A stretch of DNA of 64,000 nucleotides from Martinezella lusitana (lineage in GTDB: Bacteria > Pseudomonadota > Alphaproteobacteria > Rhizobiales > Rhizobiaceae). The position numbers were made by a program, and so were the translations under genes. How positions within the stretch are numbered: position 1 is the first letter of the stretch; each line of letters begins with the position of its first letter. The notes under the pieces are model-generated. The model made no database searches. It saw only the letters and a program-made list of their open reading frames with translations, and was not told where the DNA came from. Shown here in pieces: positions 19,641-38,590 of the stretch. The DNA lies in contig NZ_JAFEVL010000003.1 of assembly GCF_016901135.1 (NCBI RefSeq), forward strand, positions 124,001 through 188,000, given 5' to 3'.

Positions 19641-20933
19641 ATGTTTGAACGACTTTTCAAATTGAGTGAGCACGGCACGTCCGTCCGCACCGAGCTCATC
19701 GCAGGCGTGACGACGTTCTTGACGATGTCCTATATCATCTTCGTCAATCCGGATATTCTGTCGACCACCGGCATGGACCGCAATGCCATTTTTGTCGCCA
19801 CCTGTCTTGCCGCGGCATTGGGTTCGATCGTGATGGGGCTTGTCGCCAATTGGCCGATCGGGCTGGCGCCAGGCATGGGGCTCAATGCCTTCTTTGCCTT
19901 CACCGTCGTCGCAGCACTCGGCTTTACATGGCAGCAGGCGCTCGGAGCGGTCTTTATTTCGGGTGCGATCTTCGTCCTGCTGACCGTCACCGGCGTGCGC
20001 AGTTGGCTGATCGCCGGAATCCCGCGCTCGCTCAGAAGTGCGATCGCTGCCGGTATCGGCCTCTTTCTGGCTATCATTGCACTCAAGGGAGCTGGCATCG
20101 TCGTCGCCAATAAGGCGACGCTCATCGGTCTCGGAGACCTGAAGCAGACCGGCCCCCTTCTCGCAATCTTCGGTTTTTTTGTCATCGCCGTTCTTGATGC
20201 GCTGAAAGTAAGGGGATCGATCCTGATCGGCATTCTTGCTGTCACCGTTCTCTCCTGGATCTTCGGCGTCAGCCAATTTCACGGCATCGTTTCGATGCCT
20301 CCCTCGATCATGCCGACCTTCATGCAGCTCGACATCGTAGGGGCTCTCCATGGAGGCTTGATCCACATTATCCTCGTCTTCGTGCTCGTTGAGGTCTTCG
20401 ACGCAACCGGGACGCTGATCGGTGTCGCCAAGCGGGCGAAACTGATCGAGGAAGGCAAGCCGAACCGCTTGAGCCGGGCTCTGCTCGCCGACAGCGCGGC
20501 TATTGTCGCCGGCTCGTTGATGGGCACCAGCAGCACGACTGCCTACGTCGAAAGTGCTTCGGGTGTTCAGGCGGGAGGTCGCACTGGCCTGACGGCGGTG
20601 ACAATTGCCGTGCTCTTTGTCGCGGCCCTGTTCTTTTCCCCACTCGCAGCCTCTGTTCCAGCTTATGCAACGGCGCCAGCCCTGCTCTACGTCGCCGGCC
20701 TGATGATGCGCGAGCTGACGGAAATCGAATGGGATGATCTGACCGAAGCTGCACCCGCAGCACTCACGGCGCTGGCGATGCCGTTCACCTACTCGATCGC
20801 CAATGGTCTTGCTTTCGGGTTCATCAGCTACGTCGTCATGAAGGTTTGCACCGGCCGATGGAAGACGCTCCATCTGGCGACACAGATCGTTGCAGCCTTG
20901 TTCATCGTGCGCTTCGCCTTCTTCGCAGACTAA
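19641..20933 (+). CDS. NCS2/AzgA-type purine permease (guanine/hypoxanthine)
   Basis: A 430-residue inner-membrane symporter with about 12 membrane spans. It begins FERLFKLSEHGTSVRTELIAG and has the family segments TFLTMSYIIFVNPDIL, NWPIGLAPGMGLNAFFAF and GTSSTTAYVESASGVQAGG. This subgroup usually imports hypoxanthine, guanine or adenine. GGGAGGAACT precedes the ATG. The next 12 kb encode purine breakdown (guanine deaminase, xanthine dehydrogenase, urate oxidation), so the permease very likely feeds that pathway. Confidence 0.9.
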   Translation: MFERLFKLSEHGTSVRTELIAGVTTFLTMSYIIFVNPDILSTTGMDRNAIFVATCLAAALGSIVMGLVANWPIGLAPGMGLNAFFAFTVVAALGFTWQQALGAVFISGAIFVLLTVTGVRSWLIAGIPRSLRSAIAAGIGLFLAIIALKGAGIVVANKATLIGLGDLKQTGPLLAIFGFFVIAVLDALKVRGSILIGILAVTVLSWIFGVSQFHGIVSMPPSIMPTFMQLDIVGALHGGLIHIILVFVLVEVFDATGTLIGVAKRAKLIEEGKPNRLSRALLADSAAIVAGSLMGTSSTTAYVESASGVQAGGRTGLTAVTIAVLFVAALFFSPLAASVPAYATAPALLYVAGLMMRELTEIEWDDLTEAAPAALTALAMPFTYSIANGLAFGFISYVVMKVCTGRWKTLHLATQIVAALFIVRFAFFAD

Positions 20934-20947
20934 CAATTGCACGCGTC

Positions 20948-20985
20948 AAGGAGCCGGGTCATCCGATGGGACGTCCCGGCTCCTT
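20948..20985. terminator. Perfect 11-bp hairpin between convergent genes
   Basis: AAGGAGCCGGG (20948-20958) pairs exactly with CCCGGCTCCTT (20975-20985) around 16 bases. It lies just after the permease stop. There is no long T-run, so efficiency is uncertain. Confidence 0.5.
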
Positions 20986-21071
20986 GGCCTGTTTGCAGGC
21001 CGGTTCTCGTTGCATCGGAAAATGTCCTGCGACGCGTTGGATGTGAAATGTCAGATGCTCGCAACAGGAAT

Positions 21072-21104
21072 AGGGGGACGCCGCGGTCGCGGCGCCCCCC
21101 TCTT
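21072..21104. terminator. GC-rich terminator-like hairpin between convergent genes
   Basis: GGGGG (21073-21077) with a bulged A and CGCCGC (21079-21084) pairs with GCGGCG (21089-21094) and CCCCC (21095-21099) around GGTC, then CTCTTAT. It can serve the permease gene on the plus strand and the ureidoglycolate lyase gene on the minus strand. Confidence 0.6.
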
Positions 21105-21129
21105 ATCGTCTGGGATCACCCGGACCCGA

Positions 21130-21615
21130 TCAGCGGATCAGGAATGGTTCCTTGAAGAAATGCTCTTCCAGGTTTACGCCCTCACCGGCGCGGTCGACGA
21201 CGGCAAAGTCAGAGACGCCGTCGAGGGGGGTGAGGATGCCGTGCCAGACATTGCGCCCGATATTGATGCCCTGCCCAGGCTTCGTCCGGAAAGCCAGCGG
21301 CTCACCCGGCCCATTGGCTGTTTCCTGCGCCACGACAACCAGGAACGGGTTATCCGTCAACGGTATGAAGGCCTGACTGCCAAAGGGATGCCGCTCAACC
21401 ATCCGCAGTTCCAGCGGCAGCATGTAAGGCTCGCCGCGGAGCAGACTGATCATTGCTCGCGCCTTCTCGCCTGTTGTCTCGATCTTCGCGAGGTCATGGT
21501 ATCGGACGCATTTCCCGGCATTGATGGGATAGTTATATGCCCCCTCCGTTTCGATCACCTCGCCGAAGGGGAAGAAGGCAACGCTCGTCAGCGGCTGAAT
21601 CTGGATCACTTTCAT
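21130..21615 (-). CDS. allA: Ureidoglycolate lyase
   Basis: A 161-residue cupin-fold enzyme that splits ureidoglycolate into glyoxylate and urea, the last step of ureide breakdown. Characteristic parts are IQPLTSVAFFPFGEVIE at the start, MLPLELRMVERHPFGSQAFI in the middle and IGRNVWHGILTPL near the C-terminus, with the length usual for AllA. It is the second gene of a minus-strand pair, 44 bases after the allantoinase/decarboxylase stop. Its glyoxylate product links to the beta-hydroxyaspartate cycle genes at 33-38 kb. An allantoicase or allantoate amidohydrolase is not seen nearby. Confidence 0.92.
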   Translation of the reverse strand: MKVIQIQPLTSVAFFPFGEVIETEGAYNYPINAGKCVRYHDLAKIETTGEKARAMISLLRGEPYMLPLELRMVERHPFGSQAFIPLTDNPFLVVVAQETANGPGEPLAFRTKPGQGINIGRNVWHGILTPLDGVSDFAVVDRAGEGVNLEEHFFKEPFLIR

Positions 21616-21659: not shown

Positions 21660-23117
21660 TCACGCGGCAGTCCGCTGGCCGAGCGGGTGCAACGCCTGTC
21701 CGTCCTCGAACAAGGCGGTGAGCCGCAGAAGCGCGATCCGCTCCACTTGACGGCAGGCGGTGGCGAATTCGGCGGCGCGGTCGTTCTCGATCCGGGTCTC
21801 GAACGCGGCGAAGATCCCGGATTTCGTGTGGTCGCGCACGGCGATGATGAACGGGAAACCGAATTTCGCGACGTAGCGGCTGTTGAGGTCGGTGAGGCGC
21901 ACGCGTTCATCGTCCGTCAGCGCATCGAGGCCGGCAGAGACCTGTTCTTCCGTCGAGCTCGCTGTCAGGCGCTTGGCCTGCGCCAGCTTGCCGGCAAGAT
22001 CCGGGTGGGCGACGAGCACGCTAAGCCGCTCCTCCTCGCTCGCTGCGCGGAACTGGAAGGCGAGCGCGGCATGGAGACCGATCGCAGTATCGTTCGCCGG
22101 CGAAAGTTCGCCAGCGAAGGCGCGACGTGCGATCCAGGGCGAATGTTCGAAGATGCCGCCGAAGCGCTCGACAAAATCGGCCTCGGGCATCTGCGAAGGT
22201 CGTTCCGTGGCGAGCTTCGACGGATGGGTTTTCGCCCAATGCTCAGCGATATCGACGCGGCGGGCGATCCAGACTTTCCCGTGGCTTTGAACGTAGTCGA
22301 TGAAGCGGGCGAGCGCCATAACGCGGCCCGGTCGACCGATCAACCGGCAATGCAGTCCGATGCTCATCATCTTCGGGCTGTCGGCGGCGCCTTCCGCATA
22401 GAGCGCATCGAAGGAATCCTTCAGGTAGCTGAAGAACTGGTCGCCGCTGTTGAAGCCCTGCGGCGTCGCAAAGCGCATGTCGTTGGCGTCGAGCGTGTAG
22501 GGGATGATGAGCTGCTGGCGACCGCCATGCTCATACCAGTAGGGAAGATCGTCGGCATAGGTGTCGGAGATATAGTCGAAGCCGCCGAGTTCCGTCACCA
22601 GATCGACGGTGTTTATCGAACAGCGACCGGTGTACCAGCCGCGCGGCCGCTCGCCGGTGACGAGTGTGTGCAGGCGAACCGCCTCGGCGATTGCCGCGCG
22701 CTCCTCGTCCGGCTCCATGTCCTTGTGCTCGACCCATTTCAGGCCGTGCGAGGCGATTTCCCAGCCGGCCTCCAGCATGGTGGCGACCTGCTCCGGCGAG
22801 CGCTGCAGCGCGGTTGCGACGCCGTAGACGGTGACGGGCACCTGCTTTTCGGTGAAAAGCCGGTGGAGGCGCCAGAAGCCGGCGCGAGCGCCATATTCAT
22901 AGATCGATTCCATATTCCAGTGGCGCTGGCCCGGCCATTGGGAGGCGCCGACGATTTCCGAAAGAAAGGCCTCGGATGCGGCATCGCCATGCAGCACGCA
23001 GTTCTCGCCGCCCTCCTCGTAGTTCAGGACGAATTGCACGGCGACGCGCGCATCGCCCGGCCACTGAGCCGCCGGCGGCGTCTGACCATAACCGTGCATG
23101 TCACGGCAATATCGCAT
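21660..23117 (-). CDS. puuE: Fused allantoinase (PuuE) and OHCU decarboxylase
   Basis: A 485-residue bifunctional protein. Residues 1 to about 310 form a polysaccharide-deacetylase-like PuuE allantoinase (DMHGYGQTPP, QFVLNYEEGGE, WEIASHGLKWVEH), which opens the allantoin ring. From about residue 320 to the end lies an OHCU decarboxylase (FGGIFEHSPWIARRAF, LVAHPDLAGKLAQ, NSRYVAKFGFPFIIAVRD), which gives S-allantoin from 2-oxo-4-hydroxy-4-carboxy-5-ureidoimidazoline. The ATG at 23117 follows GGAGGAGTGTTCC; the open frame to 23162 is rejected. It diverges from hiuH, which performs the preceding step. Confidence 0.93.
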   Translation of the reverse strand: MRYCRDMHGYGQTPPAAQWPGDARVAVQFVLNYEEGGENCVLHGDAASEAFLSEIVGASQWPGQRHWNMESIYEYGARAGFWRLHRLFTEKQVPVTVYGVATALQRSPEQVATMLEAGWEIASHGLKWVEHKDMEPDEERAAIAEAVRLHTLVTGERPRGWYTGRCSINTVDLVTELGGFDYISDTYADDLPYWYEHGGRQQLIIPYTLDANDMRFATPQGFNSGDQFFSYLKDSFDALYAEGAADSPKMMSIGLHCRLIGRPGRVMALARFIDYVQSHGKVWIARRVDIAEHWAKTHPSKLATERPSQMPEADFVERFGGIFEHSPWIARRAFAGELSPANDTAIGLHAALAFQFRAASEEERLSVLVAHPDLAGKLAQAKRLTASSTEEQVSAGLDALTDDERVRLTDLNSRYVAKFGFPFIIAVRDHTKSGIFAAFETRIENDRAAEFATACRQVERIALLRLTALFEDGQALHPLGQRTAA

Positions 23118-23173
23118 GGAACACTCCTCCAAATGTTGTCGATGGCAAATCTCTAACCGCAAATCGCGCGCGC

Positions 23174-23230
23174 TATTCCCCTTGGAAATTTTGAAAGTCT
23201 CGAACGATCTCGCCGCTTTTCAGGGGAATA
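23174..23230. promoter_or_regulatory. Separated 9-bp inverted repeat between puuE and hiuH
   Basis: TATTCCCCT (23174-23182) and AGGGGAATA (23222-23230) are exact inverted copies separated by 39 bases. They lie centrally in the 159-base divergent promoter region, which suits a looped or paired operator controlling both directions. Confidence 0.4.
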
Positions 23231-23276
23231 AGCCTGGCGGATAGTGGAGACAGGAGCGCTACGTTCGGGAGAAAAC

Positions 23277-23642
23277 ATGCAGTCTCATTCGCAAGGAGCC
23301 GGCCGGCTCACGACCCACGTGCTGGATACGGCGCTCGGCAAGCCAGCCCAGGGCCTGCGCATCGATCTCTATCGGATCGAGGGCGATGCGCATCACCACG
23401 TCAAATCAACAGAGACCAACGGCGACGGCCGCTGTGATGCACCGCTGCTATCGGGCGAAACCATGAAGGCCGGCACTTACGAACTGCGCTTCCATGCCGG
23501 TGATTATATCGGCCGCACATCGCAAAGCCCGATGTTCCTCGATATCATCCCGATAAGGTTCGGCCTTTCGGATGAAGGCGCGCACTATCACGTGCCGCTG
23601 CTCCTCTCGCCCTACAGCTATTCCACCTACCGTGGGAGTTAA
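23277..23642 (+). CDS. hiuH: 5-hydroxyisourate hydrolase (transthyretin-like)
   Basis: A 121-residue transthyretin-related enzyme hydrolysing 5-hydroxyisourate, the product of urate oxidation, to OHCU. The N-terminal active-site region is [17 protein letters not shown] and the C-terminus is the diagnostic YRGS. GGGAGAAAAC precedes the ATG at 23277. The stop codon TAA abuts the ATG of the xanthine dehydrogenase small subunit, so translation is probably coupled. No signal peptide is seen, so it is cytoplasmic. Confidence 0.94.
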
Positions 23643-25130
23643 ATGATGGCGCCCGTCACGATCCGCTCCGAACTGCGTTTCATCCTCAACGGCCAGGACA
23701 TTGCGCTCGGCGACGTTGCGCCGAGCCAGACGCTGCTCGACTGGTTGCGTCTTTCCCGCTCGCTCAAGGGCACCAAGGAAGGCTGTGCCGAGGGCGACTG
23801 CGGCGCCTGCACGGTATTGGTCGGCCGGGTTACTCCGGCGGGTGGCCTTGTCTATGAGGGGGTCAATGCCTGCATACGCTTCCTTGGTTCGCTGGATGGC
23901 TGCCATGTGGTGACCGTCGAGCATGTCGCGGGAAGCGATGGCCATCTGCATCCGGTGCAGCAGGCTATGATCGACTGTCATGGCTCACAATGCGGCTTCT
24001 GCACGCCGGGCTTCGTCATGTCGCTCTACGGCCTCTGGATGCAGACGCCGAACCCGACCGACCAGCAGATCGAAATCGCGCTCCAGGGCAACCTTTGTCG
24101 CTGCACAGGCTATGAGCCGATCCTGCGCGCCGCACGCGCCATCTCCAGCTATGGCGGGACGACCAAGGACCCTCTGCTCGTCGAACGCGAAGCGATGATC
24201 GCCCGCCTGCGGGCCTTGCACGACGGCGCCCGCGTCGAGATCGGCGAAGGCAGCAACCGCCTGGTCGTGCCGGCGAACCTTGATGATTTTGCCGCTGTTC
24301 TCGAGGTGTCGCCGACCGCCACCGTGGTCGCGGGCTCCACCGATGTCGGCCTCTGGGTCACCAAGCACATGCGCGACATCTCACCAGCGGTCTTCATTGC
24401 CGGGCTCGACGAGTTGAAGTCGATCGCCGTGAAAGACGGCATCGTCTCCATCGGCGCCGGCGTTACCTACTCGGAGGCGATCGTGACGCTTTCGCGGCAC
24501 ATTCCGGCACTCGGTTCGCTGATCACCCGTATTGGTGGCCAGCAGGTGCGCAACATGGGAACGATCGGCGGCAATATCGCCAATGGCTCGCCGATCGGCG
24601 ACACACCGCCTCCCCTGATCGCGCTCGGTGGATCCCTCACCTTGCGCAAGGGTGCTATCAGGCGCACCGTATCACTCGAAGACTTCTTCATCACCTATGG
24701 CAAGCAGGACCGCCAGCCTGGCGAATTCGTGGAAGCCGTGCATGTGCCGGTTCCCACCGCTGAGGAAAAATTTGCCATTTACAAAGTGACCAAGCGCCGG
24801 GACGAGGACATCACGGCAACGCTCGGTGCCTTCCGCCTGACACTTGCCGCGGACGGTACAGTCACGGAGATCCGGATCGCCTATGGCGGCATGGCCGGAA
24901 CGCCGAAACGGGCGTTTGCCGTGGAAAAGGCGCTGCTTGGCCAGCCCTGGAACGAGGCCACGGTGGAACGAGCGATGGAAAGATACGCCGAGGACTACAC
25001 GCCGCTCAGCGATATGCGGGCCACCGCCGAATACCGGGCGCTCGCGGCAAGGAACCTTCTTCTCCGCTTCTACTTGGAAACGACATCAGGCGCTGCGCCG
25101 GCTCAGGTGTCCAGATACGAGGCTGCGTAA
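23643..25130 (+). CDS. xdhA: Xanthine dehydrogenase small subunit (2Fe-2S and FAD)
   Basis: A 495-residue subunit passing electrons from the molybdenum centre to NAD. The N-terminal 2Fe-2S clusters show EGDCGACTV (about residues 44-52), SQCGFCTPGFVMSLYG and NLCRCTGYEPIL. The FAD domain from about residue 200 contains TVVAGSTDVGLW and TIGGNIANGSPIGDTPP. It begins directly after the hiuH stop and is followed after three bases by xdhB, giving an operon hiuH-xdhABC. Length and motif order are complete. Confidence 0.95.
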   Translation: MMAPVTIRSELRFILNGQDIALGDVAPSQTLLDWLRLSRSLKGTKEGCAEGDCGACTVLVGRVTPAGGLVYEGVNACIRFLGSLDGCHVVTVEHVAGSDGHLHPVQQAMIDCHGSQCGFCTPGFVMSLYGLWMQTPNPTDQQIEIALQGNLCRCTGYEPILRAARAISSYGGTTKDPLLVEREAMIARLRALHDGARVEIGEGSNRLVVPANLDDFAAVLEVSPTATVVAGSTDVGLWVTKHMRDISPAVFIAGLDELKSIAVKDGIVSIGAGVTYSEAIVTLSRHIPALGSLITRIGGQQVRNMGTIGGNIANGSPIGDTPPPLIALGGSLTLRKGAIRRTVSLEDFFITYGKQDRQPGEFVEAVHVPVPTAEEKFAIYKVTKRRDEDITATLGAFRLTLAADGTVTEIRIAYGGMAGTPKRAFAVEKALLGQPWNEATVERAMERYAEDYTPLSDMRATAEYRALAARNLLLRFYLETTSGAAPAQVSRYEAA

Positions 25131-25133
25131 GCC

Positions 25134-27488
25134 ATGAACAAGCACACTTCAGACCTCAAGGCCGAAACCATCGTTGGTGGCGTCCATTCCAGCCCGCGTC
25201 ATGACTCCGCTCACAAGCACGTCGCCGGCACGGCCGTCTATATCGACGATATCCCGGAGCCTGCCGGTACCCTGCATGCAGGGATTGGCCTATCGACCGT
25301 CGCGCACGGCCTCTTGAAATCGGTCGATCTCACCGCCGTGCGCGCCGCGCCCGGCGTTATCACCGTCCTGACCCATGAGGACGTGCCCGGCGTCAACGAT
25401 ATCTCGCCCTCCTGTATGAACGACGACCCTGTGCTCGCCGCCGGCAAGGTCGAGTTTCATGGCCAGCCGATCTTCTGCGTGATCGCCGAAACGCGCGAGC
25501 AGGCGCGTCGGGCGGCGCGGTTGGCAAAGATCGAGTATGAAGTCTTGCCTGCCGATATCGACATCTGGGACCTCGACGTTTCAACCCATCGGCAGGTCGT
25601 CACGCCGCTGACGCTGAAGCGCGGCGATGCGGCGGCCGGGCTTGAAAGTGCGCCGCGCCGCGTGAAGGGCCGCATGCGGCTCGGCGGCCAGGATCATTTC
25701 TATCTAGAAGGTCAAGTCTCACTCGCCATGCCCGGCGAGGACGACGAGATTATCGTCTATTGCTCGACCCAGGGTCCGAGCGAGACGCAGCACATGGTCG
25801 CCCATGCGCTCGGCGTGCCGAGCAATGCCGTGACGATCGAGGTCCGCCGCATGGGCGGCGGCTTCGGCGGCAAGGAAACACAGGCGAATCAATGCGCGGC
25901 GATCGCTGCCATCGCCGCCAAGAAGCTGAGCCGCGCCGTTAAAGTCCGGCTCGACCGCGATGAGGACATGACCGCCACCGGCAAGCGGCACGACTTCGCC
26001 ATCGACTACGATGTCGGCTTCGACGACGAGGGCCGCATCCTCGCCATCGACTATATCTTCGCACTTCGCGCCGGCTTTTCCGCCGACCTCTCCGGCCCGG
26101 TTGGCGACCGCGCACTGTTCCACTGCGACAACGCCTATTTCTTCCCTCACGTTCACGCGAAATCAGCGCCGCTCTACACCAACACCGTCTCCAATACGGC
26201 CTTCCGCGGTTTCGGTGGCCCGCAGGGCATGGTGGGTGCCGAGCGCGTCATCGACGAGGTAGCCTTTGCCGTCGGCAAGGATCCGCTCGAAATCCGCAAG
26301 CTGAACTTTTACGACGCCATGGGTGTTGACGGCGAGCGCAACCTCACTCCCTATCACCAGAAGGTCGAGGACTGCATCATCCAGCGCATCGTCGCGGAGC
26401 TTGAGGAAAGCGCCGATTATGCCGGCCGCCGAAAGGCTATCGCCGCGTTCAATGCGAAGAGCCGCATCGTCAAGCGCGGTCTCGCACTGACTCCGGTGAA
26501 ATTTGGCATCTCCTTCACCAAGACCGAGTCGAACCAGGCCGGCGCTCTGGTGCATGTCTACAGCGACGGTTCCGTGCACATGAACCATGGTGGTACCGAG
26601 ATGGGGCAAGGTCTGCACCTGAAGGTGGCCCAGGTGGTGGCGGAAGAATTCCAGATCGATCTCGACCGGGTGAAGATCACCGCCACCACGACAGGCAAGG
26701 TGCCCAATACCTCGCCGACGGCCGCCTCTTCCGGCGCGGACCTCAATGGCATGGCGGCGCAGAACGCCGCGCGCCAGATCAAGGACCGGCTGATCGCCTT
26801 CGCGGCAGAAAGCCACCAGGTACCCCGCGAGCAAGTCATCTTCCTGCCCAACCGGGTGCGCATCGGCGATATCGAGATCCCCTTCAACGATCTCGTCAAG
26901 AAGGCCTATATGGCGCGCGTCCAGCTCTCGGCGGCCGGCTTCTACAAGACGCCGAAGATCCATTGGGACCGCTCCAAGGGCCGCGGCCACGCCTTCTACT
27001 ACTATGCCTATGGCGCCGCGTGCTCGGAGGTATCCATCGATACGCTCACTGGAGAATATGTGGTCGAGCGGACGGATATCCTGCACGATACCGGCCGTTC
27101 CTTGAACAAGGCCATCGATATCGGACAGATCGAGGGCGGCTTCATTCAGGGCATGGGCTGGCTGACGACGGAGGAATTGTGGTGGGACGACAAGGGGCGG
27201 CTGCGCACCCACGCGCCCTCCACGTACAAGATCCCGCTTGCCTCCGACCGGCCGAAGATTTTCAATGTGGCGCTCACCGACTGGTCGGAGGCTTATGAGC
27301 CGACGATCCACCGTTCCAAGGCGGTCGGCGAGCCGCCCTTGCCGCTCGGTCTTGCCGTTTTACATGCCCTTTCGGATGCGGTGGCGAGTGTCGCCGACCA
27401 CAAGATCTGCCCGCGCCTCGATGCGCCGGCAACGCCCGAGCGGGTGCTGATGGCAATCGAACGTCTCAAGGCAGCAAAAAAGGGGTGA
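25134..27488 (+). CDS. xdhB: Xanthine dehydrogenase large subunit (molybdopterin)
   Basis: A 784-residue molybdenum-cofactor subunit oxidising hypoxanthine to xanthine and xanthine to urate. Cofactor-binding motifs include RRMGGGFGGKETQA (about residues 240-253), NTAFRGFGGPQG and MNHGGTEMGQGLH. The catalytic glutamate lies in AVGEPPLPLG near residue 731. It starts four bases after xdhA and runs to four bases before xdhC. Nothing appears missing. Confidence 0.95.
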   Translation: MNKHTSDLKAETIVGGVHSSPRHDSAHKHVAGTAVYIDDIPEPAGTLHAGIGLSTVAHGLLKSVDLTAVRAAPGVITVLTHEDVPGVNDISPSCMNDDPVLAAGKVEFHGQPIFCVIAETREQARRAARLAKIEYEVLPADIDIWDLDVSTHRQVVTPLTLKRGDAAAGLESAPRRVKGRMRLGGQDHFYLEGQVSLAMPGEDDEIIVYCSTQGPSETQHMVAHALGVPSNAVTIEVRRMGGGFGGKETQANQCAAIAAIAAKKLSRAVKVRLDRDEDMTATGKRHDFAIDYDVGFDDEGRILAIDYIFALRAGFSADLSGPVGDRALFHCDNAYFFPHVHAKSAPLYTNTVSNTAFRGFGGPQGMVGAERVIDEVAFAVGKDPLEIRKLNFYDAMGVDGERNLTPYHQKVEDCIIQRIVAELEESADYAGRRKAIAAFNAKSRIVKRGLALTPVKFGISFTKTESNQAGALVHVYSDGSVHMNHGGTEMGQGLHLKVAQVVAEEFQIDLDRVKITATTTGKVPNTSPTAASSGADLNGMAAQNAARQIKDRLIAFAAESHQVPREQVIFLPNRVRIGDIEIPFNDLVKKAYMARVQLSAAGFYKTPKIHWDRSKGRGHAFYYYAYGAACSEVSIDTLTGEYVVERTDILHDTGRSLNKAIDIGQIEGGFIQGMGWLTTEELWWDDKGRLRTHAPSTYKIPLASDRPKIFNVALTDWSEAYEPTIHRSKAVGEPPLPLGLAVLHALSDAVASVADHKICPRLDAPATPERVLMAIERLKAAKKG

Positions 27489-27492
27489 TATC

Positions 27493-28392
27493 ATGTCTGC
27501 CGCACGCGAAGACATCAGGGATTTCCTGCGGCGGGAGCCGGTGTCGGTCCTGGTCGAGGTAACGGGTGCGGCGGGCTCTACGCCGCGCGATACCGATGCC
27601 TGGATGCTGGTATCGGAAGAGACAATCTTCGCGACGATCGGCGGCGGACAGCTCGAATATATGGCGATCGACCAGGCGCGGCGGGCCTTGCGTTCCGGCC
27701 TTGCGGCGGAGCCGATGAACGTGCCGCTCGGTCCGGAAATCGGACAATGCTGCGGCGGCCGCGTGGGCCTGGCCTTCACGGTGCTCAACCCGGCGCTTGC
27801 GAGTGAGCTCATCGCCCGCAGCGACCGGGAAATGGCGGCGCGGCCGCATGTCTATGTTTTCGGGGCGGGCCATGTCGGCGATGCGCTCGCCATGGCGCTT
27901 TCGCTGGCGCCGCTACGCGTCGTGCTGGTGGATACCCGTGAGGACGAACTCACCGCCTGTACCGTGCCACGCATCGAGACTTGCCTGACGGCCATGCCCG
28001 AGGCCGTAGTGCGCGACGCTCCGGCCGGCAGCAGCTTCGTCATCCTCACCCATGATCATGCGCTCGACTTCCTTATTACCGCGGAAGCGCTGAGACACAG
28101 GGATGCTGCCTATGTCGGCATGATCGGCTCCAAGACGAAACGCGCCACATTCCGTAACTGGCTGTCGCGAGAAGTCGGCCAGCCCGACCTTTTCGATCAT
28201 CTGGTCTGCCCGATCGGCGGAACTGCGTTGAAGGACAAGCGTCCTGCCGTCATCGCCACGCTCGCCGCTGCCGAAATCTTGACGGCGGCGCTGACTTGGG
28301 CACCAAAACCGGGCAAAATCCGTGCAGACTGTCAGCCGGTAGAGACCACGGCCGCAGGCTCGTCTTGGAGCAGCTTGCCGATCAGCCGCTGA
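27493..28392 (+). CDS. xdhC: Xanthine dehydrogenase accessory protein XdhC
   Basis: A 299-residue chaperone that binds sulfurated molybdenum cofactor and inserts it into XdhB. Family marks are VTGAAGSTPRDTDAWMLV, ATIGGGQLEYMAID with GQCCGGRVGL, and the Rossmann-like VYVFGAGHVGDALA. It starts four bases after xdhB. Its last 61 bases overlap the 3' end of the convergent LysR gene, so the C-terminal 20 residues are coded on both strands. Confidence 0.93.
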   Translation: MSAAREDIRDFLRREPVSVLVEVTGAAGSTPRDTDAWMLVSEETIFATIGGGQLEYMAIDQARRALRSGLAAEPMNVPLGPEIGQCCGGRVGLAFTVLNPALASELIARSDREMAARPHVYVFGAGHVGDALAMALSLAPLRVVLVDTREDELTACTVPRIETCLTAMPEAVVRDAPAGSSFVILTHDHALDFLITAEALRHRDAAYVGMIGSKTKRATFRNWLSREVGQPDLFDHLVCPIGGTALKDKRPAVIATLAAAEILTAALTWAPKPGKIRADCQPVETTAAGSSWSSLPISR

Positions 28393-31998: not shown

Positions 31999-32087
31999 TC
32001 AACCGGCGGGACGCGCCGCGCCGCGCCGCCATCTCCGGCATAGGGGACGGCGGCGAAACGGGAAAGTCCAGCGAGAATGACAAACTC

Positions 32088-32116: not shown

Positions 32117-33115
32117 CTAGTTCGTGCGCCCGATGTATTGCGCCATGTCAAGCATCCGGTTCGAGAAGCCCCATTCGTTGTCGTACCAGCCGAACACCCT
32201 GAGAAGGCCGCCGGCGCCAAGCGAGATCTCCGGTCCACTCAAAACAAGAGATTCAGGTCGACCGCGCAGATCCACCGAAACCAGTGGCTTCTCGATCCAA
32301 CCCAACACCGGCGACCCATCGGCTGCTTGTTTCAGTTTCGCACGCATGGTGTTGAGGTCCGAAACATGCCGAACCGCGACGGTGAGATCGATCGCCGAAA
32401 CGCTGGCGGTCGGCACCCGAAGCGCGCGCGCCTCGATCAAGCCGGCAAGATGTGGAAGAACTTCACCGACGATCGCATGGGCGCTCGTGGTCGTCGGCAC
32501 CATCGAAAGCGCGGCGGCACGGCTTCGGGACAGGTCGGAGCGCGGTTGATCTGTGGTCGGCTGGCTCGCAGTGTAGCAATGAATGGTGGTCATCTGACCA
32601 CCGACGATGCCAAATTCCTCGTCAACGATACGCAAAAGCGGCGCAAGCGCATTTGTGGTGCATGAGGCGTTCGAAATCACGGTCTCGCCGCGGAAGGCTT
32701 CCTCATTGGCACCCAGCACCAATGTTACATCGGCAGCGGCAGAGGGCCCGGAAATCAGCACCTTCTTTGCGCCGGCATCTATGCCTCGTTGAGCCACCGC
32801 TCGGGAATTGGCATGGCCGGTGCATTCCAGAAGAACGTCGACGCCGTGAAGGTCGAGCTTGCTGATATCAGGAACATTGTGAAACGGGATCGACACCTTG
32901 CCGACGACGAGCGTCCGCTCGCCAGTGGAGACGGCCTCCGGCCAGGGACCATAAATACTGTCATATTCGAAGAGGTAGGCGCATGTCTCCAAAGCGGCGA
33001 TGTCGTTGATCAGCACGACTTCCATATCAGGACGATCGCGCAGGAGGAGACGCAGGACCGAACGCCCGATCCTGCCAAACCCGTTAATTGCAATCCTCAA
33101 CGGCCGGTTCGACAT
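32117..33115 (-). CDS. Type I glyceraldehyde-3-phosphate / erythrose-4-phosphate dehydrogenase-like protein
   Basis: A 332-residue NAD-dependent phosphorylating dehydrogenase. The N-terminal Rossmann segment is LRIAINGFGRIGRSVLRLL. The catalytic cysteine lies in NASCTTNALAPLLR near residue 150 with the partner histidine in MTTIHCYTASQ, and the C-terminus has YDNEWGFSNRMLDMA. It differs from housekeeping GapA: TASQPTTDQ and MVPTTTSAHAIVGEV replace the usual TNDQ and PTSTGAAKAVG regions. AAGGG precedes the ATG at 33115. It lies 127 bases after bhcD on the same strand and may belong to that operon. It may be an Epd-like enzyme; substrate is uncertain. Confidence 0.82.
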   Translation of the reverse strand: MSNRPLRIAINGFGRIGRSVLRLLLRDRPDMEVVLINDIAALETCAYLFEYDSIYGPWPEAVSTGERTLVVGKVSIPFHNVPDISKLDLHGVDVLLECTGHANSRAVAQRGIDAGAKKVLISGPSAAADVTLVLGANEEAFRGETVISNASCTTNALAPLLRIVDEEFGIVGGQMTTIHCYTASQPTTDQPRSDLSRSRAAALSMVPTTTSAHAIVGEVLPHLAGLIEARALRVPTASVSAIDLTVAVRHVSDLNTMRAKLKQAADGSPVLGWIEKPLVSVDLRGRPESLVLSGPEISLGAGGLLRVFGWYDNEWGFSNRMLDMAQYIGRTN

Positions 33116-33242
33116 ACGACTTACACCCTTGCTCGACAATGCCGGAGGCCTGCAATGTCGCGGTTGAATTGGCTATCGCCGTGGCGTCGCGGATGTCGAT
33201 GCCACTGTCCTCCCTATCCTCCTCCCTTTAGATGCGCCGGCC

Positions 33243-34208
33243 CTAGAAGTCGACCTCAATTGCCACGCCTTTCGCCAGAGCGAGCTCGACGGCAGCCGAG
33301 GCGACGGCAAGATCCTGAAGGCCAACCCCCGTACCGTCGAAGAGGGTGATCTGGTCTGCGGAGGTGCGTCCGGGATGAGTGCCGTTGATGACGGCGCCAA
33401 TCTCGACGATGGCCTCTTCGCGGATCAGCCCCCTTTCGATGGCATGCTGGGATTCGCCGATGGTTATGGCCTGTGCGACTTCATCGGTGAAGACGGTTGC
33501 CGCAGCGAGGATTTCGGCTTCGATCTCCTGCTTACCCTTCGTGTCGGTCCCCATGCAGGCGAGATGCGTGCCCGGTCGAACTTGCGACGCCTTGAGCATC
33601 GGAGCGAAAGACGAGGTGATCGAAATAATGACATCCGCTTCAGCCCCCAGGCGATCAAGATCGACTGCCTCGAAGGGAAGGCCCTCCTCCTTGGCAACCT
33701 CCTCCAGACGGCTCAGCATATCCGGATGCAGATTCCAGCCGACAATCTTTTCGAATTGGCGCTGCTCAAGGGCTGCGCGCAATTGAAACGTCGCCTGATG
33801 ACCAGCACCGATCATGCCGAGGACCTTCGCGTCTTTACGGGCAAGATATTTTATCGAGATGGCAGAGGCCGCCGCCGTCCGCAGCGCAGTCAACAGATTG
33901 CCGCCGACGACGGCGCGGCATTTGCCGGTATCGGCATCGAACAGGAACACGGTGGACTGATGATTGGTGAGGCCTTTGTGGACGTTGTTCGGCCAGAAAC
34001 CACCGGCCTTGAGACCGAGCGCCAGGCCTTTGCGATCGAACCCCGACTTGAAGCCGTAGAGGGCATCGGCATGCCCGATCGCCTCGCGGACGACGGGGAA
34101 GTTATAGGCCGATCTGCTCGCCATCGAAGCAAAGACGCCCTCGACTGCCTTGAGGCAATCGGCAGGCGTGACCAATCCAGCAATTTCAGTCTCAGGAACG
34201 ATAATCAT
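33243..34208 (-). CDS. bhcD: Iminosuccinate reductase of the beta-hydroxyaspartate cycle (ornithine cyclodeaminase family)
   Basis: A 321-residue member of the ornithine cyclodeaminase/mu-crystallin family. The nucleotide-binding motif is VLGMIGAGHQATFQLRAA and the family segment VVGGNLLTALRTAAASAIS precedes it. By itself the sequence could be read as an ornithine cyclodeaminase or alanine dehydrogenase. Its place after an aldolase, a dehydratase and a glyoxylate-type aminotransferase, with a divergent IclR gene, matches BhcD, which reduces iminosuccinate to L-aspartate. The ATG at 34208 is chosen; a TTG at 34259 overlapping bhcC is the alternative. Confidence 0.85.
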   Translation of the reverse strand: MIIVPETEIAGLVTPADCLKAVEGVFASMASRSAYNFPVVREAIGHADALYGFKSGFDRKGLALGLKAGGFWPNNVHKGLTNHQSTVFLFDADTGKCRAVVGGNLLTALRTAAASAISIKYLARKDAKVLGMIGAGHQATFQLRAALEQRQFEKIVGWNLHPDMLSRLEEVAKEEGLPFEAVDLDRLGAEADVIISITSSFAPMLKASQVRPGTHLACMGTDTKGKQEIEAEILAAATVFTDEVAQAITIGESQHAIERGLIREEAIVEIGAVINGTHPGRTSADQITLFDGTGVGLQDLAVASAAVELALAKGVAIEVDF

Positions 34209-34255
34209 TGTGGCTTCCGCCTGCTTTTCAATGGGGGCCGGAGCCCCCTGTTTCG

Positions 34256-35419
34256 TCAATAGGCCTTGCCGCGGGCGGACACCGGCCAGAGCGTTTCAAC
34301 CACGCCGTTGCGCACGCCGACATACCAATCATGGACATTGCAGGTCGGATCGCAATGACCGGGGACCAGACGCAGCTTTTCGTTGATCTTGAGGACGCCG
34401 TTCGGGTCTTCGATAACGCCGTGCTCGTCCGAGCATTTGATATATTTCACGTCATCGCGACCGTAGATAAACGGCAATCCGGAGTCGACCGATTGCGCCT
34501 TGAGACCGGCATCGCAGATTGCCTTATCCGCCTTTGCGTGGCTCATGATGCTGGTCAGGATGAACAGTGCATTTTCCCATTCCCCCTGATCGATCCGCTT
34601 GCCGTCCTTGTCGTGGATGCGACCATAATCCGCGTCCATGAACGCGTAGCTGCCGCACTGCAGCTCATTGTAGACACCCGAATTGCTCTCGAAATAGTAG
34701 CTGCCTGTGCCGCCGCCGCTGACCAGCTCGGGGTCGAGACCTTCGGCCTTGAGCGCTTCGACGGCATCCTTGACCTGGGCTATCGCCACATCAAGCTTCG
34801 CCTTGCGGTCTTCATACTTGTCGATGTGCTGCATGGCACCCTGATAGGCCTGGATGCCGGTGAACTTGAGGCCGGGGGCCGCATGGATAGCGTTGGCAAG
34901 CTCGACGACGGCCGCAGTCGTCGTGACGCCGCACCGTCCGGCGCCGCAATCGATCTCGATGAAGCATTCCAAGGTCGTGCCGTATTTCTGCGCTGCCCGG
35001 GAGAGCTCATCGACATTGGCCAGATCGTCGACGCAGACGATGATCCGCGCGCCGTGCTGCGGCAGAAGCGCCAGTCGATCGATCTTTGCCGGATCGCGAA
35101 CCTGGTTCGAGACCAGCACATCCTTGATACCGCCGCGAACGAAGACTTCCGCTTCGGAAACCTTCTGGCAGCAGACGCCGATCGCGCCGCCCAATTCCTG
35201 CTGAAGCCTCAGAACATCGACTGACTTGTGCATCTTGCCATGCGCCCGGTGGCGCATGTTGTGAGCCTTTGCATAATCGCCCATCTTGCGGATGTTGCGC
35301 TCGAGCGCGTCGAGATCCAGGATCAGGCACGGCGTCTGGATATCATCGACGCTCATTCCGGGAAGAGCCGGTACGTCGTAGCCGACTTCCATGCCGGCGA
35401 ATTTCGTTTCCATGTTCAT
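34256..35419 (-). CDS. bhcC: beta-hydroxyaspartate aldolase (D-threonine aldolase family)
   Basis: A 387-residue PLP and metal enzyme of the alanine racemase-like D-threonine aldolase family. The PLP lysine is in HRAHGKMHKS (residues 58-66) and the C-terminal metal site is VPGHCDPTCNVHDW. In the beta-hydroxyaspartate cycle, BhcC condenses glycine and glyoxylate to (2R,3S)-beta-hydroxyaspartate. It starts 12 bases after bhcB. Isolated homologues are usually annotated as D-threonine aldolase; the operon context decides the call. Confidence 0.87.
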   Translation of the reverse strand: MNMETKFAGMEVGYDVPALPGMSVDDIQTPCLILDLDALERNIRKMGDYAKAHNMRHRAHGKMHKSVDVLRLQQELGGAIGVCCQKVSEAEVFVRGGIKDVLVSNQVRDPAKIDRLALLPQHGARIIVCVDDLANVDELSRAAQKYGTTLECFIEIDCGAGRCGVTTTAAVVELANAIHAAPGLKFTGIQAYQGAMQHIDKYEDRKAKLDVAIAQVKDAVEALKAEGLDPELVSGGGTGSYYFESNSGVYNELQCGSYAFMDADYGRIHDKDGKRIDQGEWENALFILTSIMSHAKADKAICDAGLKAQSVDSGLPFIYGRDDVKYIKCSDEHGVIEDPNGVLKINEKLRLVPGHCDPTCNVHDWYVGVRNGVVETLWPVSARGKAY

Positions 35420-35431: not shown

Positions 35432-36379
35432 CTATTGCCAAGGCAATTTATCGAGGTCGACGTTGCCGCCGGTGATGATGATGCCGACACGTTTTCCGGC
35501 AAAGACGTGCTTGTTCTTCAGGATGGTCGCCAGAGGCACGGCACTGGAAGGCTCCATGACGATCTTCATCCGCTTCCAGATGAGCTTCATCGCATCGACG
35601 ATGTCTTCCTCGGAAGCCGTCAGGATATCAGTGACGTGGTTCTTGACGAAATGCCACGTGAGGTCCTTGAGCGGCACCTTGAGGCCATCGGCCACGGTGT
35701 TCGGCGCATCGTCAGCTATGATGTGGCCGGCTTTGAAACTGCGGTAAGCATCATCAGCCTGTTCCGGTTCGGCCGCATAGATCCTAATGCGGGGCGCGAG
35801 GTTGGACAGGGTGAGGCAGGTTCCCGAGACCATTCCGCCGCCACCGATCGGTGCGATCACGGCATCAAGCCCGTCAACCTGTTCGATCAGCTCTTTCGAG
35901 CAGGTCGCCTGGCCCGCAATGACCCGTGGATCGTTATAGGGATGCACGAACTCCGCACCCGTTTCGGCGACGACTTCAGCAAAAACGGCTTCGCGCGATG
36001 AGGTCGAGGGTTCGCACTCGACGACCTTGCCGCCATATCCTCGGACGGCATCCTTCTTTGCCTGCGGTGCAGTGCGCGGCATGACGACCGTGCAGGGAAT
36101 TCCGCGACGGCCGGCCGCATAGGAAAGACATGTGCCATGGTTGCCGGACGAATGGGTGGCGACACCCCTGGCGGCCTGTTCGTCGCTGAGGCCAAAGACG
36201 GCATTCGACGCGCCGCGTGCCTTGAAGGCCCCCGCTTTCTGGAAGTTCTCGCATTTGAAGAACAGTTCGGCTCCCGCCAGCGAATTGATAAAGCTGGAGG
36301 TCAGAACCGGGGTGCGATGAATATGGCGCCTGATCCGCTCTTCTGCGGCGGTCATGTCGGCAAGTGTTGGAATATACAT
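35432..36379 (-). CDS. bhcB: beta-hydroxyaspartate dehydratase (threonine dehydratase family)
   Basis: A 315-residue fold-type II PLP enzyme. The PLP lysine is in KAGAFKARGASNA near residue 53, the substrate loop is THSSGNHGTCLSYAAG, and the phosphate-binding loop is APIGGGGMVSGT. It lacks the C-terminal ACT regulatory domain of biosynthetic threonine deaminase. In this operon it fits BhcB, which removes water from beta-hydroxyaspartate to form iminosuccinate. It begins 14 bases after bhcA. Serine/threonine dehydratase or serine racemase activity cannot be excluded from sequence alone. Confidence 0.87.
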   Translation of the reverse strand: MYIPTLADMTAAEERIRRHIHRTPVLTSSFINSLAGAELFFKCENFQKAGAFKARGASNAVFGLSDEQAARGVATHSSGNHGTCLSYAAGRRGIPCTVVMPRTAPQAKKDAVRGYGGKVVECEPSTSSREAVFAEVVAETGAEFVHPYNDPRVIAGQATCSKELIEQVDGLDAVIAPIGGGGMVSGTCLTLSNLAPRIRIYAAEPEQADDAYRSFKAGHIIADDAPNTVADGLKVPLKDLTWHFVKNHVTDILTASEEDIVDAMKLIWKRMKIVMEPSSAVPLATILKNKHVFAGKRVGIIITGGNVDLDKLPWQ

Positions 36380-36393
36380 GGGTCTGGCTCTCC

Positions 36394-37584
36394 TCAGGCA
36401 GCAGCCTGGATTTTCGAAGCGCGGCCGTCGCGATAATAGTCCTGCGCCGCCGCGACACCCGAGCCGAGCCTGATGTTGAGGCCGAGATCGACCATGACCA
36501 TCTCAGCCGTCGCAATGCCGGATAGGGCCATGACATCAGTCAGGCTGCCGAGATGCCCGATGCGGAAGACCTTGCCGGCAACCTCACCAAGACCAACCCC
36601 GAACGCGACATCATATGTCTTGGCGGCGTGGGCGACGATCGACGTCGCATCGAAACCATCAGGCGTGCGGATTGCGCTCACCGTGTCGGAGTAAAGGTCC
36701 TCACTCCTGGCGCAGAGTTCCAGCCCCCATGCCCGGACGGCCGCACGAATGCCCGAGGCAATGCGGCGATGGCGGGCGAAGACATTCTCCAGGCCTTCCG
36801 CCAGCAACAGTTCCGTTGACAGCTTGAGCCCATTAAGGAGACCGACGGCCGGCGTATAGGGATAGGCATTGTTTGCGTAGCTCCGCGCCATGTCTCGGAT
36901 ATCGAAAAATGTCCGCGGGAGCCTGGCCGTTTCGACCGCCGCCAGGGCCTTTGGCGAAAAGGCGGTGATTGCGAGGCCTGCAGGCAGCATGAAGCCTTTC
37001 TGCGAGCCTGTGACCGCGATGTCGACCGACCATTCGTCCATGCGGAAATCCATCGAAGCGATGGAGCTGACGCCATCCACGAACAACAAGGCGGGATGAC
37101 GCGCCGCATCGATCGCTCGACGAACGGCGGCAATGTCCGATTTGACGCCGGTTGCCGTCTCGTTATGGGTGACGAGAACCGCCTTGATCTCATGGGCGGT
37201 GTCACCTGCGAGGATTTCCTCGTAACGGTCAGCGGGAGCGCCGCCGCCCCATGCCGCTTCGATGATATCGACCTTCAGCCCGTGCCGCTGGCACATATCG
37301 ATCCAGCGCTGGCTGAACATGCCATAGCGGGCGGCAAGAACGCGGTCGCCGGGGCTAAGCGTATTGGTAATCGCCGTTTCCCATCCGCCGGTTCCCGTGG
37401 ACGGAAATACGTAGACAGAGGCCGCTTCGGTTTTGAGGACCTTCTTCACGCCGGCAAGCGCGGGCCGCAGGATCTCTCCGAACAAGGGCGAGCGATGATC
37501 GAGCGTCGGCATGTCCGCAGCCTTGCGAAGGATCTCAGGCATGTTCGTCGGGCCCGGAATGAAGACGGGGTTTTGCATATACAT
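36394..37584 (-). CDS. bhcA: Aspartate-glyoxylate aminotransferase of the beta-hydroxyaspartate cycle (class V)
   Basis: A 396-residue class V aminotransferase. It opens NPVFIPGPTNMPEILRKA, has VFPSTGTGGWETAITNTL and LLFVDGVSSIASMDFRMDEW, and carries the PLP lysine in VTGSQKGFMLPAGLA near residue 197. This subgroup includes serine-glyoxylate and aspartate-glyoxylate aminotransferases. As first gene of a four-gene operon opposite an IclR regulator it fits BhcA, which turns glyoxylate into glycine using aspartate and releases oxaloacetate. AGGAGG precedes the ATG by eight bases. Confidence 0.88.
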   Translation of the reverse strand: MYMQNPVFIPGPTNMPEILRKAADMPTLDHRSPLFGEILRPALAGVKKVLKTEAASVYVFPSTGTGGWETAITNTLSPGDRVLAARYGMFSQRWIDMCQRHGLKVDIIEAAWGGGAPADRYEEILAGDTAHEIKAVLVTHNETATGVKSDIAAVRRAIDAARHPALLFVDGVSSIASMDFRMDEWSVDIAVTGSQKGFMLPAGLAITAFSPKALAAVETARLPRTFFDIRDMARSYANNAYPYTPAVGLLNGLKLSTELLLAEGLENVFARHRRIASGIRAAVRAWGLELCARSEDLYSDTVSAIRTPDGFDATSIVAHAAKTYDVAFGVGLGEVAGKVFRIGHLGSLTDVMALSGIATAEMVMVDLGLNIRLGSGVAAAQDYYRDGRASKIQAAA

Positions 37585-37642
37585 TTGGGCGACCTCCTGT
37601 TGTTAGGGAATGGATAGCACGTCGAAAATCAGAGATAAATTT

Positions 37643-37663
37643 TTTTGAAATCATTTTTCAAAA
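37643..37663. promoter_or_regulatory. Inverted repeat in the bhcA/bhcR divergent promoter
   Basis: TTTTGAAA (37643-37650) and TTTCAAAA (37656-37663) are exact inverted copies with a 5-base spacer, in an AT-rich 196-base region between bhcA and the IclR gene. IclR regulators bind short palindromes of this size, so this is the best candidate BhcR site. Confidence 0.5.
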
Positions 37664-37780
37664 TTGTGATAAATACAATAATATCTATTATAATCAAAAT
37701 CTTGATATTTTTTCATTGTACAAATGTATTTTTCAAGTCAGAATTTTTCGTCAATTGAATCCTAGTGGAGACGACGGCTG

Positions 37781-38590
37781 ATGCCTGCTGAACCGCGCCG
37801 TAGAGGACGCCCCAAGGCCTTCAATGGCCCTCAGACACAAAACACGATCCAGGCGCTTGATCGGGCACTGGATGTCCTTGATGCTCTGGCAACCCCGGAG
37901 GGCAAGACGCTTTCCGAGCTGGCCGGCCAGCTCGGTCAGTCAGCGGCAACCATGCATCGCGTCTTGGCGACGCTGGAGCGCCGCGAGTTCGTCGAGATCA
38001 GCCCCGATCGCCAGGTCTGGCACATTGGGCCTGAGGCCTATCGGCTTGGCGCGGCTTTTCTCCGTCGCTCCAACGTCGTCGAGCGCAGCCGCCCCATCAT
38101 GCGCGAGCTCATGCTCGAAACGGGGGAAACATCCAATCTGGGCATCGAGAAGGACGGGAACGTCCTGTTCATCAGCCAGGTGGAGACCCATGAGTCGATC
38201 CGTGCCTTCTTCCCGCCCGGAACGCTGTCGCCGCTGCATGCTTCCGGCATCGGCAAGGCGCTTCTCAGCACATATGACGAAGACCGGCTTTCAGCGCTCT
38301 TCAAGAAAAAAGAATTCGAGCGATTTACCGAAAACACCGTGCGTTCCTTCGAGCAACTGCGCGAGGAGCTGCAGAAGACGCGCGAGAGAGGCTATTCGTT
38401 CGACGACGAGGAGCGCACCAAGGGGATGCGATGCGTCGCGGCGCCAATCCTGAACGTGCACGGCGAGGCGGTGGCAGGCATTTCCGTTTCCGGACCAATA
38501 CATCGTCTTCCGGACGCCGATATCCACCGGATCGGCGAGCGAGTGAGAAACGCGGCGAGAATGGTGTCCCGTCGCCTCGGCGCACCGTAG
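37781..38590 (+). CDS. bhcR: IclR family regulator of the beta-hydroxyaspartate cycle
   Basis: A 269-residue IclR-type regulator with a basic N-terminus (MPAEPRRRGRPKAFNG), a winged helix (LDVLDALATPEGKTLSELAG, QSAATMHRVLATLERREF) and the GAF-like effector domain (LETGETSNLGIEKDGNVLFI, GIGKALLSTY). Characterised BhcR from Paracoccus denitrificans senses glyoxylate and controls the divergent bhcABCD genes. Position and family are the same here, so the assignment by context is strong. Binding would be to the inverted repeat at 37643-37663. Confidence 0.87.
   Translation: MPAEPRRRGRPKAFNGPQTQNTIQALDRALDVLDALATPEGKTLSELAGQLGQSAATMHRVLATLERREFVEISPDRQVWHIGPEAYRLGAAFLRRSNVVERSRPIMRELMLETGETSNLGIEKDGNVLFISQVETHESIRAFFPPGTLSPLHASGIGKALLSTYDEDRLSALFKKKEFERFTENTVRSFEQLREELQKTRERGYSFDDEERTKGMRCVAAPILNVHGEAVAGISVSGPIHRLPDADIHRIGERVRNAARMVSRRLGAP

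Follow-up and report, generated by a model that had tools for sequence, protein, structure and literature searches.

A purine-degradation cluster joined to the genes of the β-hydroxyaspartate cycle in Martinezella lusitana and other Alphaproteobacteria

A stretch of 64,000 nucleotides from the genome of Martinezella lusitana (7.43 Mb, 78 contigs), hereafter the window, was analysed; it covers positions 124001–188000 of contig C65, which has 436,288 bases. The window carries a near-complete purine-degradation cluster joined to bhcABCD, the genes of the β-hydroxyaspartate cycle (BHAC). The glyoxylate released from purines would probably be assimilated by this cycle, whose genes stand at the place of the glycerate-pathway genes in relatives. 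The coupling of these known pathways is real and recurrent; its kind is known from the allantoin cluster of E. coli, and here the BHAC is the exit. The functions of the genes were assigned via hidden Markov models (HMMs), mostly over curated cut-offs, which are given in the following list beside the bit scores.

19641–20933, plus strand: NCS2-type purine permease, left end of the purine block (PF00860 Xan_ur_permease, 183 bits, cut-off 27)
21130–21615, minus strand: allA, ureidoglycolate lyase (PF04115, 191 bits; subfamily model NF009932, 213, cut-off 160; under the narrower equivalog cut-offs)
21660–23162, minus strand: puuE-uraD fusion, allantoinase and 2-oxo-4-hydroxy-4-carboxy-5-ureidoimidazoline (OHCU) decarboxylase (TIGR03212, 544.5, cut-off 424.6; TIGR03164, 201.6, cut-off 96.25)
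23244–23642, plus strand: hydroxyisourate (HIU) hydrolase (TIGR02962, 136.7 bits, cut-off 87)
23643–25130, plus strand: xdhA, xanthine dehydrogenase small subunit (TIGR02963, 675 bits, cut-off 467)
25134–27488, plus strand: xdhB, xanthine dehydrogenase large subunit (TIGR02965, 1364 bits, cut-off 849.5)
27493–28392, plus strand: xdhC, xanthine dehydrogenase accessory protein (TIGR02964, 311 bits, cut-off 161.6)
28332–29291, minus strand: LysR-type regulator, predicted to act on the purine block (PF03466/PF00126; in many loci found next to PuuD, HIU hydrolase or XdhA)
29417–30658, plus strand: puuD, membrane urate oxidase with a cytochrome-like C-terminus (PF06181 Urate_ox_N, 447 bits, cut-off 27; PF13442 weak, under cut-off)
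30655–31998, plus strand: guaD, guanine deaminase (TIGR02967, 580 bits, cut-off 375)
32117–33139, minus strand: glyceraldehyde-3-phosphate dehydrogenase (GAPDH)-like gene (gap) of putative role at the end of the bhc run (TIGR01534, 333 bits, below the cut-off of 367)
33243–34259, minus strand: bhcD, iminosuccinate reductase (NF045643, 593 bits, cut-off 500)
34256–35419, minus strand: bhcC, 3-hydroxy-D-aspartate aldolase (NF045642, 773.5 bits, cut-off 690; best PDB match 6qkb, D-3-hydroxyaspartate aldolase)
35432–36379, minus strand: bhcB, beta-hydroxyaspartate dehydratase (NF045641, 612 bits, cut-off 550)
36394–37584, minus strand: bhcA, L-aspartate-glyoxylate aminotransferase (NF045640, 750 bits, cut-off 650)
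37585–37780: divergent promoter region of bhcA and bhcR; its conserved AT-rich palindrome (37644–37662) is a candidate BhcR operator
37781–38590, plus strand: bhcR, predicted IclR-type glyoxylate-sensing regulator (NF045644, 413.6 bits, cut-off 350)

The β-hydroxyaspartate cycle cluster was complete: bhcA, bhcB, bhcC and bhcD were adjacent on one strand, and all exceeded their NCBIfam equivalog cut-offs. The gap-bhcDCBA run started from the bhcA/bhcR promoter region and was convergent to guaD; the bhcC and bhcD genes overlapped by 4 bases, and the spacing along bhcA-bhcB-bhcC was 12–14 bases. In the purine block, puuE-uraD and allA pointed leftward and HIU hydrolase-xdhA-xdhB-xdhC rightward, and lysR (leftward) diverged from puuD-guaD (rightward). 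An original prediction, made from the letters of this stretch, had placed purine import, purine and ureide breakdown and, beyond them, a glyoxylate-assimilating cycle in this block, and every function that it named was present at its coordinates according to the HMMs. The bhcDCBA genes and bhcR were likewise found beyond the purine block. The prediction had not described the fusion of allantoinase and OHCU decarboxylase into a single gene or the GAPDH-like gene that intervenes between guaD and bhcD.

The recurrence of this arrangement was explored in three sets of bhc loci. A locus was scored as positive when at least one core purine gene (AllA, PuuE-UraD, HIU hydrolase, Xdh, PuuD, GuaD, 8-oxoguanine deaminase, or the cupin described below at ≥45% identity) was located within 10 kb of BhcC. 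Among the 247 family genomes, 28 (29 loci) had a BhcA over its cut-off, and 224 had PuuD; the family set comprised the 28 loci other than that of the window, several of which lay on short contigs and were scored negative. A genome under the BhcA cut-off that had no BhcB or BhcC (G114) was left out of the counts. In the class set of 385 genomes, the best 40 of 50 further matches were read, and the 12 with both BhcB and BhcC were counted. The named set consisted of the 80 best loci from a BhcC-alignment scan of named genomes, of which 79 had BhcB; the other (L185) was dropped. The family and named sets overlapped partly, and their counts were summed for the control only (119 loci).

Positive loci numbered 8 of 28 in the family set, 4 of 12 in the class set and 39 of 79 in the named set (7, 3 and 38, respectively, without counting the cupin); 16 of the named loci had short flanks and no purine match. 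The positive loci belonged to Rhizobiaceae, Aurantimonadaceae, Paracoccaceae, Roseobacteraceae, Methylobacteriaceae, Phyllobacteriaceae and Ahrensiaceae. As a control, eight genes were taken from two other regions of the window genome, and none of them was found beside any of the 119 bhc loci; the association of purine genes with bhc was thus far above chance. A rough estimate, which assumes a 5-Mb genome with one or two purine clusters, puts the chance expectation of adjacency at about 1%. In the BhcC tree, the purine label required 13 changes, at least 4 of them on strongly supported branches, compared with a shuffled mean of 19.5 (0 of 500 shuffles as low). Hence, purine adjacency is clustered in the tree yet was repeatedly gained or lost.

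The adjacency occurred in several gene orders. The purine clusters of G173 and G124 enclosed bhcDCBA-R, with allA on one side of it and guaD on the other. In P. ferrooxidans, a purine permease followed about 40 bp past the bhcD position, then 8-oxoguanine deaminase and uraH, all on the strand of the bhc run; the record of this strain gives the bhc genes general family names only, and BhcC was confirmed by match. In 17 of the 79 named loci, all of them Paracoccus, the next purine gene followed bhcD in the same orientation at a distance of up to 100 bp, and the bhc and purine genes are presumably co-transcribed there. The bhcC of the window had 97% identity with that of R. lusitanum P1-7, and 14.5 kb of DNA aligned at 92%; the guaD-gap-bhc side of the block has the same gene order in P1-7. 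R. lusitanum is listed as Martinezella lusitana in NCBI's 2026 taxonomy. The original prediction had also proposed a link to the ureides exported by legume nodules. No specific support was obtained for this link, because Paracoccus, Leisingera and others, which to our knowledge are not legume symbionts, share the pairing. Its statement that no description of the pairing was known agrees with a search of open-licence papers, in which none was found. A Spirulina subsalsa contig (L139) carried BhcB and a BhcC that grouped with Paracoccus and is probably a contaminant.

The place beyond guaD was occupied by a different glyoxylate pathway in relatives. The purine block on plasmid pRtrCIAT899c of R. 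tropici CIAT 899 had about 85% DNA identity with the window over 23102–32055 and 19440–20935 and 75% over allA, and the homology ended 57 bp past guaD. Beyond this point, CIAT 899 had an IclR gene that scored 358 bits with the BhcR model (cut-off 350), followed by gcl (1193 bits), hyi and glxR, for which the HMMs gave confirmation, and by a gene resembling glycerate kinase. Eight of the 18 listed records besides CCGE531 and CCGE532 were read. Of 8 purine blocks read that were without adjacent bhc, 7 had a BhcR-like IclR gene with gcl-hyi-glxR beyond guaD (CIAT 899, AB2/73, 11515TR, BG4, Shinella PSBB067, P. qamdonense and E. adhaerens). A lysozyme gene intervenes in P. qamdonense, in which the stretch read ends inside glxR, and the eighth block, that of S. 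fredii CCBAU 45436, had no gcl set within the flank read. The gap-bhc module was also present in CCGE531 and strain IGFRI, there at the opposite end of the block, beside the NCS2 permease; the stretch read in CCGE531 showed no gcl. The gcl-type blocks of CIAT 899, AB2/73, 11515TR, BG4 and Shinella (L207, L227, L228, L229 and L230) showed no puuE-uraD match at this place, and that of BG4 was also without allA.

No gcl exceeded the cut-off anywhere in the window genome (best 344 bits against 711). In the 247 family genomes, gcl was found in 52 and bhc in 28, with an overlap of 0 (Fisher 0.0011, kinship ignored). The idea that the two always exclude each other was nevertheless rejected, since S. 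americanum, S. meliloti Rm41 and, judging by consecutive records, S. chiapasense carry both. On account of its spread, rather than of a dated tree, gcl is taken as the earlier neighbour and bhc as the later one; in this Rhizobium lineage, the module of the GAPDH-like gene and bhc likely displaced IclR-gcl-hyi-glxR-glxK at the end of the purine block. The picture is one of two modular interfaces: the purine block would pair with either gcl or bhc, and bhc in turn with either purine genes or glycolate oxidase.

The step from allantoate to ureidoglycolate, which the original prediction had reported as missing from the block, was indeed not encoded there, and a candidate cupin was located elsewhere in the genome. 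The proposed genome search for allantoicase or allantoate amidohydrolase yielded no allantoicase, the cupin over its cut-off and two candidates of the M20 peptidase family. Allantoicase (PF03561) was detected neither in the window genome (profile search, control silent) nor in 3 other sampled members of the genus, and the same search was positive in 58 of the 247 family genomes. The cupin gene (C65:57397–58233) is on the same contig, about 85 kb upstream (left) of the block, and scored 504 bits (cut-off 350) with NF040771, a model named bifunctional allantoicase/(S)-ureidoglycine aminohydrolase. Its product had 28% identity with E. coli AllE, and its best PDB match was 1sq4, a 'Glyoxylate-induced Protein'. 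The distributions of the cupin and allantoicase were nearly complementary (181 and 58 of the 247 genomes, respectively; both in 8, neither in 16), and each of the 28 family genomes with bhc carried the cupin (25) or allantoicase (3). Cupin homologues were found in the stretches around 7 of 28 family, 3 of 12 class and 18 of 79 named bhc loci, whereas the E. coli AllC query gave no match in the stretches read. The cupin is favoured for the allantoate step because of this near-complementarity and its presence near bhc loci where the AllC query was silent; according to its model name and gene context, it is likely the enzyme of this step. Since an allantoate-degrading enzyme is thus predicted outside the block, the genome would not lack one, a lack that the original prediction had named among three refuting outcomes; with the predicted cupin all the steps from purine to glyoxylate (Xdh-PuuD-HIUH-UraD-PuuE-allantoate step-AllA) are encoded.

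The M20 enzymes were evaluated as alternatives. Of 24 M20 matches in the genome, four had what we take to be an AllC-like motif, and the best score of these four with the AllC model was 240 bits against a cut-off of 597.75. Two passed subfamily models named allantoate amidohydrolase, namely, L013 (697 bits, cut-off 452) and L016 (402, cut-off 399), and the other two (L019 and L020) were over the cut-off of a general hydantoinase/carbamoylase model only. L013 is a neighbour of dihydropyrimidinase. L016 lies within an ergothioneine-degradation cluster and was best described by unnamed-hydrolase and ErtE models, with the higher score on ErtE. Both were ranked below the cupin because of their gene context. 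The region C43:280001–300000 (L216) contained a cluster for ergothioneine degradation, with thiourocanate hydratase, thiohydantoin desulfurase, ErtD and an ErtE-like gene. Two further loci (L108 and L111, in G547 and G457) had BhcA-like aminotransferases without BhcB, BhcC or BhcD matches that adjoined PuuD and a LysR gene; as a guess, these are possibly ureidoglycine-glyoxylate aminotransferases.

In the proposed flow, the NCS2 permease would import guanine, hypoxanthine and xanthine, GuaD would carry out the deamination, and Xdh and PuuD the oxidations. HIU hydrolase and UraD would lead to allantoin, which PuuE would open to allantoate. The cupin, encoded about 85 kb from the block, likely converts allantoate into ureidoglycolate, and AllA would release glyoxylate and urea. 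The urea would be taken by a urease encoded elsewhere in the genome, the alpha subunit of which scored 999 bits on contig C33 (cut-off 680). BhcR likely senses glyoxylate and switches on bhcABCD, by which two glyoxylate molecules would be turned into oxaloacetate with no carbon lost.

Regulation was considered from the residues of BhcR and from the promoters. The BhcR of the window retained the glyoxylate-binding residues, and its pocket (S143, A146, S154, M220, G160, I161, D212, S239 and S241 in E. coli IclR numbering) agreed at 8 of 9 positions with the P. denitrificans BhcR in the table of PMC11323563, the difference being Ser instead of Thr at 143. According to that paper, BhcR is an activator required for growth on glyoxylate and is close to IclR and AllR. 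A palindromic motif was derived from 68 orthologous bhcA/bhcR intergenic regions, and 37644–37662 was its top match in the window; a similar bhc-promoter site was present with or without purine neighbours. The best match in a purine promoter, at 29325 between lysR and puuD, was rejected as a BhcR operator; it was also conserved in gcl-type relatives and more likely belongs to the LysR regulator. Control of the purine genes by BhcR is not claimed, because this site is kept in gcl-type relatives and the bhc site is independent of purine neighbours. The lysR/puuD and puuE/HIU-hydrolase promoter regions contained conserved elements common to gcl-type relatives. Therefore, different signals probably induce the purine genes and bhc in this genome, and glyoxylate would be the link between them.

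The arrangement was compared with known systems. In E. coli K-12, the allantoin/glyoxylate cluster has the order allS-allA-allR-gcl-hyi-glxR-allW-allB-ybbY-glxK-allE-allC-allD. It shares with the window ureide genes, AllA, an IclR-type regulator (the repressor AllR in E. coli), a second regulator (AllS in E. coli) and adjacent glyoxylate assimilation. The window thus also has, next to its ureide genes, a module for the assimilation of glyoxylate and a regulator of the IclR family, with bhc in place of gcl. The E. coli cluster alone has the glycerate pathway (gcl) and AllB, and it is without the Xdh, PuuD and HIU steps; the window, in contrast, has PuuE instead of AllB and neither AllC nor AllE inside the block. 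The CIAT 899 block has the purine genes as in the window, whereas IclR-gcl-hyi-glxR-glxK takes the place of gap-bhcDCBA-bhcR. The Paracoccus BHAC cluster has the same five genes, bhcR-bhcABCD, with bhcR and bhcA divergent as in the window (mBio 2024, PMC11323563). That cluster was described for glycolate, and the passages on it in the same paper mention no adjacent purine cluster; the introduction names purines and allantoin among the sources of glyoxylate. P. ferrooxidans, a relative of the studied Paracoccus, does have purine genes adjoining bhc.

Several observations weigh against the assimilation of purine glyoxylate by the adjacent cycle. The cupin gene is away from the purine genes in the window genome, and L013 or L016 could be the allantoate enzyme in its stead. 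A second purine cluster of this genome (C33:190001–210000; L027 and L025), with xdhB, xdhC, puuD, guaD, HIU hydrolase, allA and separate uraD and puuE, had no bhc in the 20 kb read around it. A single genus, Paracoccus, accounted for 19 of the 39 named positives; 24 of the 79 named loci were purine-negative despite at least 9 kb on both sides. In the family set, 20 of 28 loci, including some from short contigs, were without a purine gene, and the Sinorhizobium strains mentioned above carry gcl together with bhc. Moreover, a scan with the palindrome motif found no common BhcR operator in the purine promoters, and bhc adjoined GlcD- and GlcF-like (glycolate-oxidase-like) genes in some purine-free Rhizobium and Sinorhizobium loci (L129, L130, L134, L137 and L145). 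The last two points would be expected if bhc mainly served glycolate or another source of glyoxylate and its position by the purine block were incidental, and the regulation of the BHAC was worked out on glycolate in Paracoccus, according to the passages of PMC11323563 on the cluster. This explanation is nevertheless considered unlikely. Purine genes were found by bhc in 39 of 79 named loci and GlcD-like genes in 7 of 80, the latter being a lower bound from the E. coli GlcD query; in addition, the several gene orders, the label changes on strongly supported branches of the BhcC tree and the filling of the place beyond guaD by gcl in relatives argue against it.

Purines may also be used for nitrogen, with the BHAC detoxifying glyoxylate and feeding aspartate instead of supporting growth on purine carbon. 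By established pathway knowledge, only two of the five ring carbons of a purine end in glyoxylate and the others are lost as CO2 or urea, and a urease is present; both facts suit such a use, which is a serious possibility although not the one we favour. Against it, a glyoxylate-exit module of one of two kinds was kept across relatives, and the BHAC yields oxaloacetate, a net gluconeogenic product. It overlaps with the use of purine carbon, as the flow of glyoxylate is the same and only the purpose differs; the two assessments are not exclusive, and genomic data do not separate them. The opposite-end position of the bhc module in the CCGE531 block indicates that the module moves as a unit, as would be expected of two neighbouring catabolic islands (megaplasmid-borne in relatives) brought together by chance or transfer and having no functional link. 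Such a chance origin is strongly disfavoured and highly improbable, given that the module occupies two separate positions beside one block, that it is interleaved with the purine genes in G173 and G124, that Paracoccus has apparent operons and that no control gene was found at any of the 119 loci. The assimilation of purine glyoxylate by the adjacent cycle, which was the core of the original prediction, is well supported by its recurrence across alphaproteobacterial families and gene orders, by the rival pathway beyond guaD in relatives and by the predicted allantoate enzyme.

In 10 of the 79 named loci (L127, L128, L141, L143, L145, L146, L151, L159, L169 and L177), a GAPDH-like gene was located downstream of bhcD in the same orientation, at a distance of at most 150 bp in nine and about 600 bp in one. 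The protein encoded in the window retained SNASCTTN, had PTTTSA at the position of PTSTGA in two solved GAPDHs and scored under the GAPDH-I cut-off. It is perhaps a dedicated gluconeogenic enzyme or one with a new substrate. To the left of the block, a nucleoside hydrolase (5007–6002) might supply bases to it, and 13854–19214 encoded an ABC transporter of the polyamine type together with an ArgE-like M20 enzyme. Between bhcR and a chemoreceptor, the stretch 38713–44130 encoded a member of the formate/nitrite transporter family, a histidine kinase accompanied by FixJ-like regulators, and a bicupin of the oxalate decarboxylase family. This stretch was absent from R. lusitanum (L127), in which bhcR adjoined the chemoreceptor directly.

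The β-hydroxyaspartate cycle has been studied as a glycolate-use route of marine and soil bacteria, and the recurrent, in places operon-like pairing with purine genes suggests another natural supply of glyoxylate for it, as well as a carbon-neutral means of retaining the two purine carbons that reach glyoxylate. The alternation of gcl and bhc beyond the same guaD resembles a natural experiment in pathway swapping. As a tentative generalisation, which we put somewhat below an even chance, the purine clusters of Alphaproteobacteria may have an interchangeable slot for the glyoxylate exit, which takes either gcl-hyi-glxR-glxK or bhcABCD, the latter alone or with a dedicated GAPDH-like gene, and in many bacteria with the BHAC the cycle would primarily salvage purine carbon rather than serve as a glycolate pathway.

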